From positions 124,001 through 188,000 of the forward strand of contig NZ_CP139559.1 in the NCBI RefSeq assembly GCF_034263275.1: DNA of 64,000 bases, given 5' to 3'. This document shows positions 3,246 to 34,216 of the stretch, one piece after another. The position numbers and the translations under genes were made by a program. Position 1 is the stretch's first letter. The number at the start of each line of letters is the position of its first letter. The notes beneath the pieces were generated by a model. It saw only the letters and a program-made list of their open reading frames with translations. It was not told where the DNA came from and ran no database searches. The DNA is from Mucilaginibacter sp. cycad4 (GTDB taxonomy: Bacteria; Bacteroidota; Bacteroidia; Sphingobacteriales; Sphingobacteriaceae).

Positions 3246-6200
3246 TTAGTTTGAAGTAGTTTGCGGTTTGTTTTCCTGTTGCTGCTGCATGTTTTTTTGT
3301 TCCAGCGCCTTGTCGGCTTCTTCTTGCTTTTGTTTCTTTTCTTTTTCTTGTTGCTGGTACTGGCGGCGTAACCTGCGCTCTTCAGGGGTACGCTTGCGGA
3401 AGATCTCCCTGAAACGGTTATAATCAACCGTTAGGGTGAAGCCTACACCGGTTTCAATGATCTGGCCCTGGATCACAATAAATTCATCGCGGCGGTACGC
3501 ACGCAATGTATAGCGGCCATCCTTACTTAGTTTATATGCTATAGATACGTCGCCCGCTATGTTGGATGCTTTTTGACCCGGTTGATTGCCTTCAAGGTTA
3601 AAGTTGTTACCAACGCTTACGGTAAGCCGGTCGCTGAGGAAACGTTTGGACAGGCCAACGTTCAGGTCAGTACGATTGGTTGCCGTGCCCGATGAATAAT
3701 CTTCACCGGATGTAAGGCCGAAGTTCAGGTCGACACCCGAGATCAAACTGCCCGCCAAACGGTTTAACTGATCTGAAAGGAGGCTGCTTACACTGTTACG
3801 GATAGTGCCTTCAACCGTAGTGCCTGCACCCTGGCTTTGCAGCGGGTTATCGCCAATAAAGTGGCCCAGTACCAGCACGCCCAAAACCTGTTTATTAAGT
3901 TCGTTAGGGTCTTGCCGTATCTGGGTTAGCCTGGTATTTACGGTGTTTACCACATCTGATGATACGGAATAAGAACTGTCTGGCAATACAATGTCAAAAC
4001 TTATGTTAGGTGTTAGCAACTGATCTTTCAGGTTAAGGTTAACATTGAAAGGTAGTTTTTGCTTGTACATCGTACTGTTTTGAGCATCCGAAAGTTGGTT
4101 TGAAACCAGGTCGATAGGAGGCACATTGGCTACATAAATGGCCGTAAGGTCAATATTGGCGCTGGTTGGATCGCCCGTCCAAACAATGGTACTGCCTTTT
4201 TTAAAGTTGAAGGTACGTTTAACAGTTGCATAGGCCAGGTTGTACGAGCCTGAGTTAACTACGTAAGTACCGGTAAGGTTTATTTTGCCGCTTGGGTCAA
4301 TGCCGCCATTCAGGCTGGCCTCGCCTTTAAGATGTACGATATCGCCGTTTCGCTCATCAACTACAATAGTAAACGCCGCGTTTTTATTTACGTTGATAGT
4401 TGCAGAAACATCCAGCCCCGTAACATCCGATTTTTTAAGCGAGTCCAGTTGCCTGGCCAGCAGGATGGAGTCCATTTTAGGGGCATCCTTGTCAATAAAG
4501 TCAACCACACCTTTTCGGTCCTCTACCGCCGGGTCGTTGGTAGGCAGTACAAAGGTCATGTCGGTTTTGTCGTTAACGGTAAGGTTGGCATCAACCACCG
4601 GCTTAGTCATATTACCGCGGATCTTGATGCGGGTATCCACATAAAGCTTGCCGTAATAAAGTTTGTTATCGGCCTGGGTTGAATTGGTAACCCTGAAATT
4701 ATTGGCGTTGATATCCATACCGAAGGCAAAATCGGTGTAAGTTTTGGTATAAATACTGCCGCTTACCACAGCCTTGTTGCCGGTTGAATCAACCAAAGTG
4801 AAATCATTAAAACGGATCCCCTCGTTATTAAAAGTGATACTTTCCTGCGGCATTCGGAAGTAGGAGTTAAGCATGGCTACGTTAAAGCCTACTTTATTAA
4901 AGTTGACGTCGCCCCGCACTGATGGAGCGTCCGTAGTACCTGATATTTTAAGTGCTCCGGTAATATTGCCCGTAGCATTGCGCAGGTTGCCAAAGCTGAA
5001 ACCCTCGATGCTCTTCATGCTCAAGTTCACGATATTCAGGTCGAGGTCAAAACGGCTTTCTGGCGAGGTATAATAGGTGCCAGTGAGATCAACCTGGTTG
5101 CCTTTGCCCGTTATGCTCATTTGTGCTGCATAAGCATTGGCGGTTTGGTTATTTACTTTAAGGGCAATGTTACCTACCGTATCGCCTTTAAAGTTGAAAT
5201 CGTTAACGTTGATGGCGGCGGTAAATACAGGAGTTGTTTGGAAGTTGCTTACAGTAGCATCGCCATTAATGGTGCCGCCTACCTGTAACGAATCCTGTTT
5301 GGCCATTTTGGTAAGCGCCTCAATATGGAAATTGTTAAACTTGATATTCAGCGGACTGTTAAACTCCTGCGTACTGCTGTTAACGCTCAGTACCTGGTTG
5401 TTATTGGTAATGGTAAAGTTGTGTGCCAAAATGCCTTTTGGCCCGTATTGCAAAAAGTTATCATCGCTAACCGCCCACGGCAAATAATCAAGCAGCAGGC
5501 CATCTTTATTAAAGCTGAACTGGTACTCATCCGGCAAGATGCTGAAGGTACCCGCTACACGGAAACGTTCCTTCTTAGCCGCATCGCGGATCTGTAGGCT
5601 TAAACCAGCTTTATTATCCCGGGCAGCGCCGGAGATGCTGGTATTCAGCAGATCGACAGAGGTGCCAACTTTAACCTCATCAACCGAAAAGTTATAGTTA
5701 AGCGCATTATTGGCCGTATTGATATTAAGAGATGCCTTGTTAACCGTATTGGTGCCGTAAACCACTTTTGGTATGGAGCCTTTAACAACCAATTCACCTG
5801 TTTGGCTGTCGAAGCTGCCGTTCAATAACACAGGGTCAAGCTGTTTCAGGTCTGGTACAAACTGGGTAAGCAATGGGGTTTTAACTAACCGGGCTTCAAA
5901 CTTAAACTGCTGCGCATCGTACTTAACTACCGGTGCGGGCTTGGTTTTAATGGTTTTGCCGCCCTTGGTTTTTACAGCCACCTGCTGCCCGCCGGCAATG
6001 GCGGTGTTAAAATATTTGTCGATCACATCCTGCAGGGCCGGGGCTATCTGCGTAAGTTTGTACTTACCGGCCATGTGAGCGCTCATTACAGAGGTTTTTA
6101 AACGAAGCGTACTGCTGTCGGCACTGGCTGTTGAAATGAGGCTGATGGTATCCATCTGGATGCGCTGGCCTTTGTTAACTACCAACAGGTCGGTGGCTTT

Positions 6201-30093: not shown

Positions 30094-30939
30094 ATGAAAG
30101 CAGACTTACAAACATTAGAAAAAACCGCGTCGCAGATTAGGCGCGACATTGTACGTATGGTACATGGCTGTCAATCAGGCCACCCCGGCGGCTCATTGGG
30201 CTGTACCGATTTCTTTACCGCATTGTACTTTTCGGTAATGAACCACGATCCTAAATTTAATATGGATGCAGTTGGCGAAGATATTTTCTTCCTGTCAAAC
30301 GGCCATATTTCCCCCGTGTTTTACAGCACATTGGCACATGCCGGTTATTTTGATAAAGCCGAACTGGCAACTTTCCGTAAACTGAACGCGCGTTTACAAG
30401 GTCACCCAACCACGCATGAGCACCTTCCGGGCATCCGTATTGCTTCGGGTTCATTGGGCCAGGGCTTATCTGTAGCTATCGGCGCTGCATTGGCTAAAAA
30501 ATTAAATGGTGATAAATCATTGGTGTTTACCCTGCATGGCGATGGCGAGCTCCAGGAAGGCCAGATTTGGGAAGCCGCGATGTTTGCGCCTCATAACCAT
30601 GTTGATAACCTGATCTCGACTATAGATGTTAACGGTCAGCAAATTGATGGTCCAACTAAACTGGTACTTTCATTAGGCGATCTTCGCGCTAAATGGGAAG
30701 CTTTTGGCTGGGATGTATTGGATATGAAAGGTAATGATATGGCCGATGTGGTTAGGGTGCTTGAAGAAGCAAAAAGCCGCACTGGTCAGGGTAAACCGAT
30801 CATGATCCTGATGCATACCGAAATGGGTTACGGTGTTGACTTTATGGTAGGCAGCCACAAATGGCACGGTGTTGCGCCAAATGATGAGCAGCTTAAACTG
30901 GCTTTAGATCAGTTAGAGGAAACACTGGGCGATTATTAA
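30094..30939 (+). CDS. Transketolase, N-terminal (thiamine diphosphate-binding) subunit
   Basis: 281 aa. It covers the first half of transketolase: GHPGGSLGCTDFFTALYF, the LGQGLSVAIGAALA segment and the TPP/Mg motif HGDGELQEGQIWEAAMFA...DVNGQQIDG. Split transketolases need the partner encoded at 31046. The pair transfers two-carbon ketol units in the pentose phosphate pathway. The gap between the two genes (106 bp) holds a palindromic repeat. Confidence 0.95.
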   Translation: MKADLQTLEKTASQIRRDIVRMVHGCQSGHPGGSLGCTDFFTALYFSVMNHDPKFNMDAVGEDIFFLSNGHISPVFYSTLAHAGYFDKAELATFRKLNARLQGHPTTHEHLPGIRIASGSLGQGLSVAIGAALAKKLNGDKSLVFTLHGDGELQEGQIWEAAMFAPHNHVDNLISTIDVNGQQIDGPTKLVLSLGDLRAKWEAFGWDVLDMKGNDMADVVRVLEEAKSRTGQGKPIMILMHTEMGYGVDFMVGSHKWHGVAPNDEQLKLALDQLEETLGDY

Positions 30940-31045: not shown

Positions 31046-32011
31046 ATGAAAAAATACACTTACACAGATAAAAAAGATACCCGCTCGGGCTTTGGCGCCG
31101 GGTTGCTGGAAGCAGGCCAGAAAAACGACCAGGTTGTTGCCCTTTGTGCCGACCTTATCGGTTCGTTAAAAATGAACGATTTTATTAAAGCATTCCCCGA
31201 GCGTTTTGTACAGGTAGGTATTGCTGAAGCTAACATGATCGGTATTGCTGCCGGTATGACTATAGGCGGTAAAATTCCTTTTACCGGTACTTTCGCAAAC
31301 TTTTCAACAGGCAGGGTTTATGATCAGATCCGCCAGTCGGTAGCTTATTCAAACAAAAACGTTAAAATTTGCGCTTCACACGCTGGTTTAACTTTGGGCG
31401 AGGACGGTGCTACCCACCAGATTTTGGAAGATATCGGCCTGATGAAAATGTTACCAGGCATGACGGTTATCAACACCTGCGATTATAACCAAACCAAAGC
31501 TGCTACCATTGCTATTGCTGATTATGAAGGCCCGGTTTATTTACGTTTCGGTCGCCCGGTTGTTCCTATTTTTACCGATCCTGATCAAAAATTTGAAATT
31601 GGTAAAGCATGGATGGTGAACGAAGGTGCCGATGTAAGTATCTTTGCAACAGGTCACCTGGTATGGCAGGCTATCCTTGCAGGCGAAATTTTAGCTGAGC
31701 AGGGTATCGATGCCGAGATCATCAACATCCACACCATTAAACCGTTGGATGAAGAGGCTATTTTGAAATCAGTTGCTAAAACAGGCTGCGTAGTTACTGC
31801 CGAAGAACACAACCGTTTGGGTGGCTTAGGCGACAGCGTTGCCCAGGTACTTGCAGTGCACAACCCATCACCACAGGAGTACGTAGCTGTAAATGACAGC
31901 TTTGGCGAAAGCGGTACACCTGAACAACTGATGACCAAATACGGCCTTGATGCCGATCATATTGTGGCAGCGGTGAAAAAGGTGATAGAAAGAAAAAACA
32001 AAAAAGGTTAA
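31046..32011 (+). CDS. Transketolase, C-terminal subunit
   Basis: 321 aa. The pyrimidine-binding domain shows FVQVGIAEANMIGIAAGM (catalytic Glu) and ASHAGLTLGEDGATHQ. The C-terminal transketolase domain contains GADVSIFATGHLVWQAILAG and TAEEHNRLGGLGDSVAQVL. It completes the split enzyme with the product of 30094. An ECF sigma gene starts 31 bp downstream. Confidence 0.95.
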   Translation: MKKYTYTDKKDTRSGFGAGLLEAGQKNDQVVALCADLIGSLKMNDFIKAFPERFVQVGIAEANMIGIAAGMTIGGKIPFTGTFANFSTGRVYDQIRQSVAYSNKNVKICASHAGLTLGEDGATHQILEDIGLMKMLPGMTVINTCDYNQTKAATIAIADYEGPVYLRFGRPVVPIFTDPDQKFEIGKAWMVNEGADVSIFATGHLVWQAILAGEILAEQGIDAEIINIHTIKPLDEEAILKSVAKTGCVVTAEEHNRLGGLGDSVAQVLAVHNPSPQEYVAVNDSFGESGTPEQLMTKYGLDADHIVAAVKKVIERKNKKG

Positions 32012-32042: not shown

Positions 32043-32597
32043 ATGTCGGTACAGGTTGAAGATTCAGAGATATTAAGCAAGTTTCAGGACGAAAAGACCC
32101 GGAATGAGGCATTTAACCTGTTGTTGAAAAAATACCAGCAAAAAATATACTGGCACATCAGGCGCATGGTTGTTGATCATGACGATGCTGATGACCTGGT
32201 TCAGGATGTTTTTGTAAAGGTTTGGAAAAACCTTGCCGGTTTCAGAAACGACGCGCAACTGTACACCTGGATGTACAGGATAGCATCCAACGAATGCATT
32301 ACTTTTTTGAATAAGAAAAAACAAAAAAATAATGTTTCGTTGGATGATGTTGCTTATGAGCTGGCCGATACACTGGCCGACTCAACCTATTTTAACGGCG
32401 ATGCAGCACAGCGTAAGCTACAGGAAGCACTGCTTACCCTGCCCGAAAAACAACGGCTTGTTTTCAATATGAAATATTATGAAGACATGAAGTACGAAGA
32501 AATGTCGCAGGTTTTGGGTACCAGTGTGGGCGCTTTAAAGGCTTCTTTTCACTTGGCAGTCAAGAAGATAGAAGCTCATTTGCTCGGCAGGGATTAA
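32043..32597 (+). CDS. ECF-type RNA polymerase sigma factor
   Basis: 184 aa. Region 2: YWHIRRMVVDHDDADDLVQD with VFVKVWKNL, then YTWMYRIASNECI. Region 4: LTLPEKQRLVFNMKYYEDMK with YEEMSQVLGTSVGALKASFH. No extra domains. It directs RNA polymerase to a stress regulon. It is followed by a one-pass membrane repeat protein (51 bp) and a small exported protein (17 bp further), the usual position for its anti-sigma factor and periplasmic sensor. The transketolase gene ends only 31 bp upstream, so read-through is possible. Confidence 0.93.
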   Translation: MSVQVEDSEILSKFQDEKTRNEAFNLLLKKYQQKIYWHIRRMVVDHDDADDLVQDVFVKVWKNLAGFRNDAQLYTWMYRIASNECITFLNKKKQKNNVSLDDVAYELADTLADSTYFNGDAAQRKLQEALLTLPEKQRLVFNMKYYEDMKYEEMSQVLGTSVGALKASFHLAVKKIEAHLLGRD

Positions 32598-32648
32598 TTT
32601 TTTAATTTACGTTAAACCTTTTAGCACTATACCAATCTATAGTTGTGT

Positions 32649-33692
32649 ATGAAAAGCGATATGGACAATAGGGAATGGCTGGATGATTTCATCGCGCTGA
32701 AACAGGTTAGCAAAACTAACCCGTTCACAGTGCCTGAAGGCTATTTTCATGAGTTAGCGCAGCACATTACAACACGCATAAGGCTTGAGGGATTAAAAAA
32801 CTATCCATCTGCAGGGTACACCGTACCTGAAAATTACTTTGACGAGCTAAGCAGCAATATCCGGAGCCGTATAAATATTGAAAGTGCTTTTGGCGCCGGT
32901 GATTCGGGGTTTACCGTTCCCGAAAATTATTTTGATGAGCTGAGCAGCAATATTCAAAGCCGTATTGTGGTTGATGAAGCCATGAATGCGGGTGAGAGTT
33001 TCACGGTGCCCGAAAATTACTTTGATGAGCTAAGCAGCAATATCCAAAGCCGGATAACGGTGGAGGAGGCCATGGATTTGGCTGATGAAGGCTTCACTGT
33101 ACCTGAAAACTACTTTGATGAGCTGAGCAGCAACATCCAAAGCCGCATAGCGGTTGAGGAGGCCATGGGCAATGAGGGTTTTACTGTTCCTGAAAACTAT
33201 TTTGAGGAACTAAGCGCCAATATTCAAAGCCGTATAGCTGTTGAAGAAGCAGTGAATGCTGAGCACGAAGGCTTTGTTGTACCGATAGATTACTTTAATC
33301 AGCTTAACCAGCGTATCCTGGATAAAACAGTTAATGCTGATTTGGAAGAGGAGCAGGAGATTGATAATGTTGTAAGCATTAACAAAGCCAAACCCGTACA
33401 GAAAAAGGGTATAGTAAGGAGGCTTTGGTTGTCGCCTACCATCAGGTATGCTACAGCGGCCTGTTTTGCTTTGATATTAGGTGTGGGTGTTATTTTCAGG
33501 GGAGATATCCAGGCGCCGGACCATAACCATTCTTATTTGCACGAGCAGGTATCATCAGTACCGGTTGATGAAATAAAAAGCTATCTTCAGTTACACATGG
33601 ACGCGAGCGATACCCGTACACTGATAGATGCTAACCAAAAAAGCAACACAAGTAATGCAGACGAAGATCTGTCGGATTATATAGATAATTAA
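32649..33692 (+). CDS. Membrane protein with seven tandem VPENYF repeats, candidate anti-sigma factor
   Basis: 347 aa from the ATG at 32649. Residues 1-225 hold seven copies of a ~30-residue repeat, core FTVPENYFDELSSNIQSRI, with VPxxYF starting at residues 28, 59, 90, 120, 151, 180 and 211. A basic linker (KKGIVRRLWLSPTIRY) leads into one helix (about 266-284). About 60 residues then lie in the periplasm. The repeat part is cytoplasmic by the positive-inside rule. No zinc-binding anti-sigma motif (HxxxCxxC) is present. The place right after an ECF sigma gene suggests sigma binding or signal transfer. I know such VP-x-x-YF units from uncharacterised Bacteroidota proteins, usually with one or two copies. 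Function is inference. Confidence 0.75.
   Translation: MKSDMDNREWLDDFIALKQVSKTNPFTVPEGYFHELAQHITTRIRLEGLKNYPSAGYTVPENYFDELSSNIRSRINIESAFGAGDSGFTVPENYFDELSSNIQSRIVVDEAMNAGESFTVPENYFDELSSNIQSRITVEEAMDLADEGFTVPENYFDELSSNIQSRIAVEEAMGNEGFTVPENYFEELSANIQSRIAVEEAVNAEHEGFVVPIDYFNQLNQRILDKTVNADLEEEQEIDNVVSINKAKPVQKKGIVRRLWLSPTIRYATAACFALILGVGVIFRGDIQAPDHNHSYLHEQVSSVPVDEIKSYLQLHMDASDTRTLIDANQKSNTSNADEDLSDYIDN
32730..33300 (+). repeat. Tandem ~90-bp coding repeats
   Basis: Seven repeats with periods of about 90-93 bp inside the membrane protein gene. Copies 2-6 share long nearly identical runs such as GAAAATTACTTTGA(T/C)GAGCT. Units differ by third-position changes and by short linker indels, indicating duplication of a DNA unit followed by selection on the protein. 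Confidence 0.85.
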
Positions 33693-33709
33693 ACAGAGGA
33701 AAAAATTTA

Positions 33710-34216
33710 ATGAGTAAATTGATCAGGCATATTTGTATTGTGTTATTTGTTATGGCAATAGGCTATGAGGCTGTGGGACAGGTTAACCGCTTTGTTCCGG
33801 CTCAAACGCCTTCAAGGCCCCAACTTAACCCGGTACGCCCTAATGGCAACAAAAAGGGCGCTATGGGTAAAAGACTTGAAGCTGCCCGTAACAGGTATAT
33901 CAGCCGCCAGCTTGATCTTACTGATGAAGAGGCTACTAAATTCTGGCCGCTTTATAACCAGTACCAGCAGGAGCTTACTGCTGTGCGCATTCTGAAGCGT
34001 TTAAACAACTCTACTTCATCAACCAATGGCACCGAGCAAATAGATAAGGAAATTTATTACGAAAGCCAGCTGGTTGGGATCCGTAAACGCTATCGCGATT
34101 CCTTTGCCAAGATCCTTCCTCCCGAAAAGGTGAGTGTCCTGTACAAGAGCGAGCAGGAATTTAACGACGAACTCATCAAGCAGCTCAGCGAACGCAGCGA
34201 AAGAGCGGGGAATTAA
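33710..34216 (+). CDS. Small exported helical protein, LTxEE/Spy-like, possible periplasmic sensor
   Basis: 168 aa. Signal peptide about residues 1-23 (MSKLIRHICIVLFVMAIGYE). The mature part is proline-rich at first, then helical with RNRYISRQLDLTDEEATKFWPLYNQYQQEL, a pattern like the LTxxQ/Spy-CpxP group and Bacteroidota proteins with a FWPLYNxY motif. In that group the proteins sense or buffer unfolded proteins or metals in the periplasm. It is third in the sigma operon, 17 bp after the repeat protein, with an AGAGGAAA stretch that can serve as ribosome site. A role in signalling to the repeat protein is inference. Confidence 0.75.
   Translation: MSKLIRHICIVLFVMAIGYEAVGQVNRFVPAQTPSRPQLNPVRPNGNKKGAMGKRLEAARNRYISRQLDLTDEEATKFWPLYNQYQQELTAVRILKRLNNSTSSTNGTEQIDKEIYYESQLVGIRKRYRDSFAKILPPEKVSVLYKSEQEFNDELIKQLSERSERAGN

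Follow-up and report, generated by a model that had tools for sequence, protein, structure and literature searches.

A Mucilaginibacter sigma factor locus of the cirY-cirZ-spy layout with seven tandem VPxxYF units in the likely membrane anti-sigma factor

Introduction

The closest described counterpart of the locus analyzed here is cirY-cirZ-spy of Phocaeicola vulgatus, described in 2026, where spy is reported to be co-transcribed with cirY/cirZ and deletion of cirZ to turn the sigma regulon on (PMC13114119). The same report places a second Spy gene of P. vulgatus behind another sigma/anti-sigma pair, with SusC/D immediately downstream (M0N98_01970); the spy gene of this second region was only about 3-fold induced in colitis, and the third proteins of both regions are Spy-like by structure prediction (PMC13114119). 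Two further systems invite comparison, namely CnrYXH of Cupriavidus metallidurans, which couples a membrane anti-sigma factor with a periplasmic sensor (PMC4598750), and the Dma (dual membrane-spanning anti-sigma) proteins of Bacteroides, which carry a long tether with a beta-barrel at its end (PMC13088901).

In class I anti-sigma domains, helices 1-3 bind sigma4 and helix 4 binds sigma2 (PMC7406223). According to a 2020 survey, such domains are encoded beside only 6% of the Bacteroidetes ECF sigma factors, for which disrupted synteny or other ways of regulation were suggested (PMC7406223). In the literature on repeat-type anti-sigma factors and on the present layout, tandem anti-sigma units were not described in the titles or abstract openings among the matches listed.

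Here we analyze a trio of genes that lies in a stretch of 64,000 nucleotides of the genome of Mucilaginibacter sp. cycad4 (hereafter, the window) and encodes an ECF sigma factor, a membrane protein with tandem repeats and a predicted exported protein with an LTxxE motif (hereafter, the LT protein). A first-pass annotation of this DNA knew of no described system with this layout, a statement that no longer holds given that cirY-cirZ-spy has the same layout (PMC13114119).

Results

Gene layout and genomic context

An ORF check recovered the three genes exactly where the first-pass annotation had placed them (Table 1) and, judging from their spacing, they look like one operon. The host genome comprises 7.11 Mb in one contig, and a search of it with the repeat protein returned a single match, the protein itself (E <= 0.1); an annotated protein of Mucilaginibacter sp. 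SG538B is 96% identical to it. The sigma factor is a plain two-domain ECF sigma by Pfam, shows 79% mean identity to the other 89 sigma factors of the family set described below, and scores under the cutoff of TIGR02985, the Bacteroides sigma-70 family (110.4 bits vs 126.4). Its relatives of solved structure, as judged by sequence, include AlgU/SigH, SigE, SigW and CnrH.

Table 1. Features of the trio, in positions of the window.
Feature	Position	Strand	Evidence
ECF sigma factor, 184 aa	32043..32597	+	Pfam Sigma70_r2 1.5e-16, Sigma70_r4_2 7.3e-15
Likely anti-sigma factor with seven xVPxxYF units, a single predicted membrane helix and a short tail predicted to be periplasmic	32643..33692	+	
Unit 1, FTVPEGYF...	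32724..32795 (residues 28-51)	+	unit HMM 35.4 bits
Unit 2, YTVPENYF...	32817..32888 (residues 59-81)	+	unit HMM 40.6 bits
Unit 3, FTVPENYF...	32910..32981 (residues 90-113)	+	unit HMM 45.8 bits
Unit 4, FTVPENYF...	33000..33071 (residues 120-143)	+	unit HMM 47.0 bits
Unit 5, FTVPENYF...	33093..33164 (residues 151-174)	+	unit HMM 47.8 bits
Unit 6, FTVPENYF...	33180..33251 (residues 180-203)	+	unit HMM 46.7 bits
Unit 7, FVVPIDYF..., membrane-proximal, most divergent	33273..33344 (residues 211-232)	+	unit HMM 23.9 bits
Predicted membrane helix	33441..33497 (residues 267-285)	+	Kyte-Doolittle window mean 1.97
Predicted periplasmic tail of the repeat protein, about 64 residues	33498..33689	+	
Predicted exported Spy/CnrX-like (LTxxE) protein, 168 aa	33710..34216	+	N-terminal hydrophobic stretch
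LTDEE...FWP motif of the third protein (LTDEE, residues 70-74)	33917..33949	+	alignment

Directly upstream of the trio are two ORFs that read as the halves of a transketolase (30094-30939 and 31046-32011), and in 57 of the 90 family loci the C-terminal half occupies this place on the same strand; the trio may be co-transcribed with this gene. In Phocaeicola barnesiae (L221), the trio is followed downstream by an ORF that reads as a complete transketolase. A dyad upstream of the sigma gene was considered as a sign of a promoter, and it was present in 24 loci compared to 4-5 in shuffles. Yet it is uninformative on the promoter, because the prevalence of the adjacent transketolase gene makes the excess explicable by shared coding DNA.

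The repeat protein

The unit HMM, which was trained on family proteins with the window units included, detects seven units of about 30 residues each in the window protein, with scores of 23.9 to 47.8 bits. The seven VPENYF repeats of the first-pass annotation stand as to their number, but the exact motif is confined to units 2-6, with VPEGYF in unit 1 and VPIDYF in unit 7. Tandem Repeats Finder reports a 93-bp period in the gene (score 357). Comparison of the cores of units 2-6 (21 codons, 10 pairs) yields a pS of 0.667 vs a pN of 0.078, so that these copies look to be under purifying selection, the DNA having diverged while the protein was kept. The same combination of saturated synonymous change and conserved protein rules out a chance repeat. 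A likeness to designed dTor repeat proteins among the PDB sequences (E 3.8e-4) was discarded as well, the shared feature being only the 31-residue period. The protein probably begins at the ATG at 32652 and not at the TTG at 32643 chosen by the ORF caller, because many orthologues begin there (alignment A1); its length is then 346 residues.

The single hydropathy peak of the window protein agrees with the one-pass topology and short tail proposed earlier. Exactly one peak is likewise present in 77 of the 90 family proteins, and the median tail of these 77 is 67 aa. Within the tail, alignment A1 reveals the conserved consensus IPxxEIxxYL, through which the tail may contact the third protein.

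No Pfam or NCBIfam model matched the window protein above its cutoff, and neither FecR nor zf-HC2 nor any other anti-sigma model was found in these scans; HxxxCxxC is present in 0 of the 90 family proteins. An anti-sigma factor of the FecR or zinc type is thereby excluded in the window, as the original reading, which saw neither motif nor domain, had it. Among the relatives of the repeat protein, no Pfam family is common to more than 5 of 29 at E <= 0.1. Many of the listed homologues bear the precomputed labels PF26708 and PF27471, which are absent from direct Pfam scans. A search of the PDB sequences with the profile of the protein gave no credible match (best E 0.36).

The third protein

Three residues of the LT protein, L70, F78 and P80, are invariant in 28 members. 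At E <= 0.1, the Pfam model Metal_resist matches 8 of these 28 (best 3.9e-5) and LTXXQ 4 of them (best 9.4e-4), and the window protein matches neither at this threshold; a search of the PDB sequences with the LT profile yielded no convincing hit (best E 0.049). Among the columns of alignment A2 that are filled in at least 20 of the 28 rows, none contains 30% or more of His plus Cys, and the highest His fraction is 0.25. Metal sensing through conserved His/Cys ligands was accordingly rejected, and the lack of such a column in the family makes metal sensing of the CnrX kind unlikely. The third protein is predicted to be exported and Spy-like and is a likely reporter on the cell envelope.

Distribution of the trio and number of units

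The repeat protein found a match in 178 of 201 genomes of the family Sphingobacteriaceae (E <= 1e-5) and in 172 of the 186 of good quality. We examined 90 family loci, 30 returned by the family search and 60 picked from its listing, the matches beyond these 90 being mostly weaker. Gene order and strand are kept in all 90, so that a separation of the three genes in relatives, which the first-pass annotation had named as a refuting result, did not occur.

In a sample of 296 genomes from the phylum (E <= 0.001), the repeat profile matched in 90 and the LT profile in 118. From outside the family, we took 60 loci around LT matches: an ECF sigma gene is located upstream of the LT gene in 58 (L189 and L190 have no sigma gene), and a middle ORF is also present in 57 (it is missing in L186). 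At least one unit was detected in 52 of the 57 middle ORFs with a lenient HMM cut, and none with the same cut in L193, L205, L206, L207 and L208. Eighty named loci were found by the sigma factor, in a scan dominated by Bacteroidales because its matches were ordered by their similarity to a sigma factor from that order. A sigma ORF is present in 79 of these, with an LT gene no more than four ORFs after it in 72 of the 79; in at least one named locus (L277), the LT gene follows the sigma gene with no middle gene. Thus, the trio is not a lone oddity, the same order being found in most of the related Bacteroidota loci examined.

The copy number of the unit ranges from 1 to 8 among the relatives, with a single copy in gut relatives. 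Among the 90 family proteins, the unit HMM counts 3 units in 28, 4 in 14, 5 in 23, 6 in 20 and 7 in 5, and the anti-sigma proteins of the 79 named loci contain one unit in 62 cases, two in 5, three to eight in 11 and none in 1. A quick tree of the sigma factors, built from 184 of the 228 rows (every second family locus, L001, L028 and all other loci), shows at least 8 changes between fewer than 3 and 3 or more units, and at least 10 between fewer than 5 and 5 or more, gains and losses being counted together because the root of the tree was not inferred.

Counterparts in Phocaeicola

Both published sigma/anti-sigma/Spy regions are present in one Phocaeicola genome (G558), at L360 and L354. At L360, the sigma gene is followed by a gene whose 120-residue product contains a single unit (TPDGFF), a weak match at 8.4 bits with the unit HMM, and by a Spy-like ORF. 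Next come a CBM9 gene (2.7e-109) and one that combines glucosaminidase (9.3e-42) and LysM (3.1e-18) domains. We take the one-unit protein for the putative counterpart of CirZ, an assignment made by gene order and not by locus tag because the strain of the published work is CL10. The window sigma factor is 46% identical to the CirY-like sigma of this locus over 161 residues, and blastp gave no alignment between the window repeat protein and the CirZ-like protein.

The order at L354, the second region type of P. vulgatus, is sigma, an anti-sigma protein with one unit (VPEGYF, vs seven units in the window protein), an LT gene, and then genes for a TonB receptor (SusC-like) and SusD. Here, identity to the window reaches 55% over 174 residues for the sigma factor and 26% over 125 for the LT protein. 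Neither of the two Spy-like proteins of this genome matches Metal_resist or LTXXQ at E <= 0.01. The SusD-like gene of L354 is split into two overlapping ORFs of 181 and 412 aa (4190-5918, minus strand) vs one of 576 aa in the close relative L355; the split is a frameshift or a sequencing error. A further Spy-like gene of Phocaeicola (L321, 4593-5123, minus strand) was seen in a piece of DNA that contains no sigma gene and ends shortly behind it.

Probable relationship to zinc-binding anti-sigma domains

Among ten related proteins scanned, four contain a zf-HC2 domain above the cutoff, and a fifth contains one below it. In the deep relatives L192, L199 and L210, an N-terminal zf-HC2 domain above the Pfam gathering score is followed by one VPxxYF unit and then by a hydrophobic stretch; L206 combines zf-HC2 with a YY-type helix, in which the HMM detects no unit. 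Because zf-HC2 precedes the single unit in these three deep relatives, we consider it probable that the unit corresponds to helix 4 of class I anti-sigma domains and that this helix persisted after loss of the zinc bundle and was later multiplied. Units 3-6 of the window protein are closer to the single-unit proteins than unit 7 is (49.6-51.6 vs 26.3 bits). Across the family, middle and last units are, on average, about equally close to these proteins (32.2 vs 31.9 bits).

Structure models

For the chain of sigma factor and repeat protein, the best of five AlphaFold2 models had a mean pLDDT of 59.8, compared to 49.4-55.0 for the others. By blocks, the pLDDT of the best model is 68-95 in the sigma factor, 82-85 in unit 7 and 34-48 in units 1-6, unit 7 being the only unit above 50; the docking of unit 7 is thus read from the pLDDT of one model, without coordinates or PAE. 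When unit 7 was omitted, unit 6 reached a pLDDT of only 44-53, no unit was confident and the confidence in the sigma factor was lower. A closed, SigW/RsiW-like shape of the sigma factor was considered as a sign of docking and abandoned, given that omission of unit 7 leaves this shape unchanged. The first-pass annotation had envisaged a multivalent repeat that could hold several sigma molecules or set a dose threshold; modelling of the pair, with AlphaFold2 confident on the membrane-proximal unit only, speaks against seven equal sigma sites and would still be compatible with accessory ones.

Discussion

The anti-sigma role suggested for the repeat protein by the initial annotation draws support from the deletion of cirZ reported for a system of the same layout, in which the CirZ-like protein contains one such unit. 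Because of that deletion in a similar operon, we assign the part of an off-switch to the repeat protein, which by this analogy is very probably an anti-sigma factor. The explanation that we favor on balance is that of a membrane-anchored off-switch of the sigma factor, with the main clamp in unit 7, accessory units in front of it and a Spy-like reporter on the envelope. Under this model, unit 7 would be the main anchor of the sigma factor at the membrane, and units 1-6 would catch and re-catch the sigma factor close by, so that its release would need stronger or longer stress. The periplasmic tail of the anti-sigma factor would stay quiet as long as the Spy-like protein holds it; once misfolded envelope protein draws the Spy-like protein off, the sigma factor would be released, perhaps with the anti-sigma factor being proteolyzed first. 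As a separate element of the model, the role of units other than unit 7 as accessory sigma sites, to which AlphaFold2 lends no support, is somewhat doubtful.

The question of what units 1-6 do separates this model from two alternatives. One is that only unit 7 binds the sigma factor, the others being a spacer or binding a protease adaptor, RNA polymerase or the nucleoid. The AlphaFold2 pattern with and without unit 7 fits this possibility, as does the labile copy number, with its repeated crossings of the three-unit boundary (at least 8) on the sigma tree. However, a spacer would not need a near-identical protein at saturated synonymous divergence, and the single-unit proteins resemble units 3-6 more than unit 7; we regard this alternative as unlikely. 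The other is that all seven units are equal sites, such that a single chain could bind as many as seven sigma molecules and would define a dose threshold. The near identity of units 3-6 despite many synonymous differences, their closeness to the single-unit proteins and the predominance of a single unit among the named loci (62 of 79) all point in this direction. Against it, AlphaFold2 is confident on unit 7 only and leaves units 1-6 undocked when unit 7 is omitted; moreover, because the genes, from their spacing, look like one operon, a chain with seven sites would offer far more sites than there are sigma molecules unless expression differs. Equal sites thus appear quite improbable. That the protein is a membrane scaffold co-expressed with the sigma factor and unrelated to its control, as the absence of any matching anti-sigma family model could suggest, is very improbable given its near-invariant position between the sigma and LT genes, the genetic evidence for an anti-sigma factor in the place of cirZ within this layout (PMC13114119), and the zf-HC2 anti-sigma domains found at the same place in deep relatives.

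The YF unit is a concrete candidate for part of the missing anti-sigma factors of Bacteroidota, and its natural range of 1 to 8 copies lends itself to asking how the threshold of a transmembrane switch is set by the number of binding helices. Beyond that, we tentatively raise the possibility, which we consider doubtful, that proteins with the YF helix form an anti-sigma class of their own, consisting of one sigma-binding helix and a membrane anchor, that would fill much of the Bacteroidota anti-sigma gap; the grip on the sigma factor would be tuned by 1 to 8 copies, and the seven-copy form would be a multivalent sigma buffer at the membrane.

Compared to the known systems, the locus combines familiar parts. 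The CnrYXH class II anti-sigma factor wraps its sigma factor with two cytoplasmic helices, and CnrY is not known to carry repeats of the xVPxxYF kind. The window trio resembles CnrYXH in pairing a membrane anti-sigma gene with a predicted exported third protein, in that CnrH is one of the structural relatives found for the modelled sigma factor and in the Metal_resist matches of some LT relatives; it differs in that CnrX senses cobalt or nickel, whereas the LT family is devoid of conserved His or Cys. Unlike in FecI/FecR, the membrane protein of the window lacks a FecR domain. With the Dma systems, as far as they are described, the trio shares the combination of a Bacteroidota ECF sigma, a membrane anti-sigma factor and a third gene (Dma2 there), but the part of the window protein behind the membrane helix is only about 64 residues long, and a C-terminal beta-barrel is absent. 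Class I zinc anti-sigma factors are approached by L192, L199 and L210, in which the VPxxYF unit lies behind zf-HC2 at the expected position of helix 4, in contrast to the family proteins, which have tandem units and no zinc motif. The nearest system is the CirYZ-Spy operon, with its sigma, anti-sigma and Spy-like genes in the same order and one unit in the CirZ-like protein where the window protein has seven. Accordingly, the layout is one already described, and the window trio differs from the described form in the seven-fold tandem repetition of the unit.
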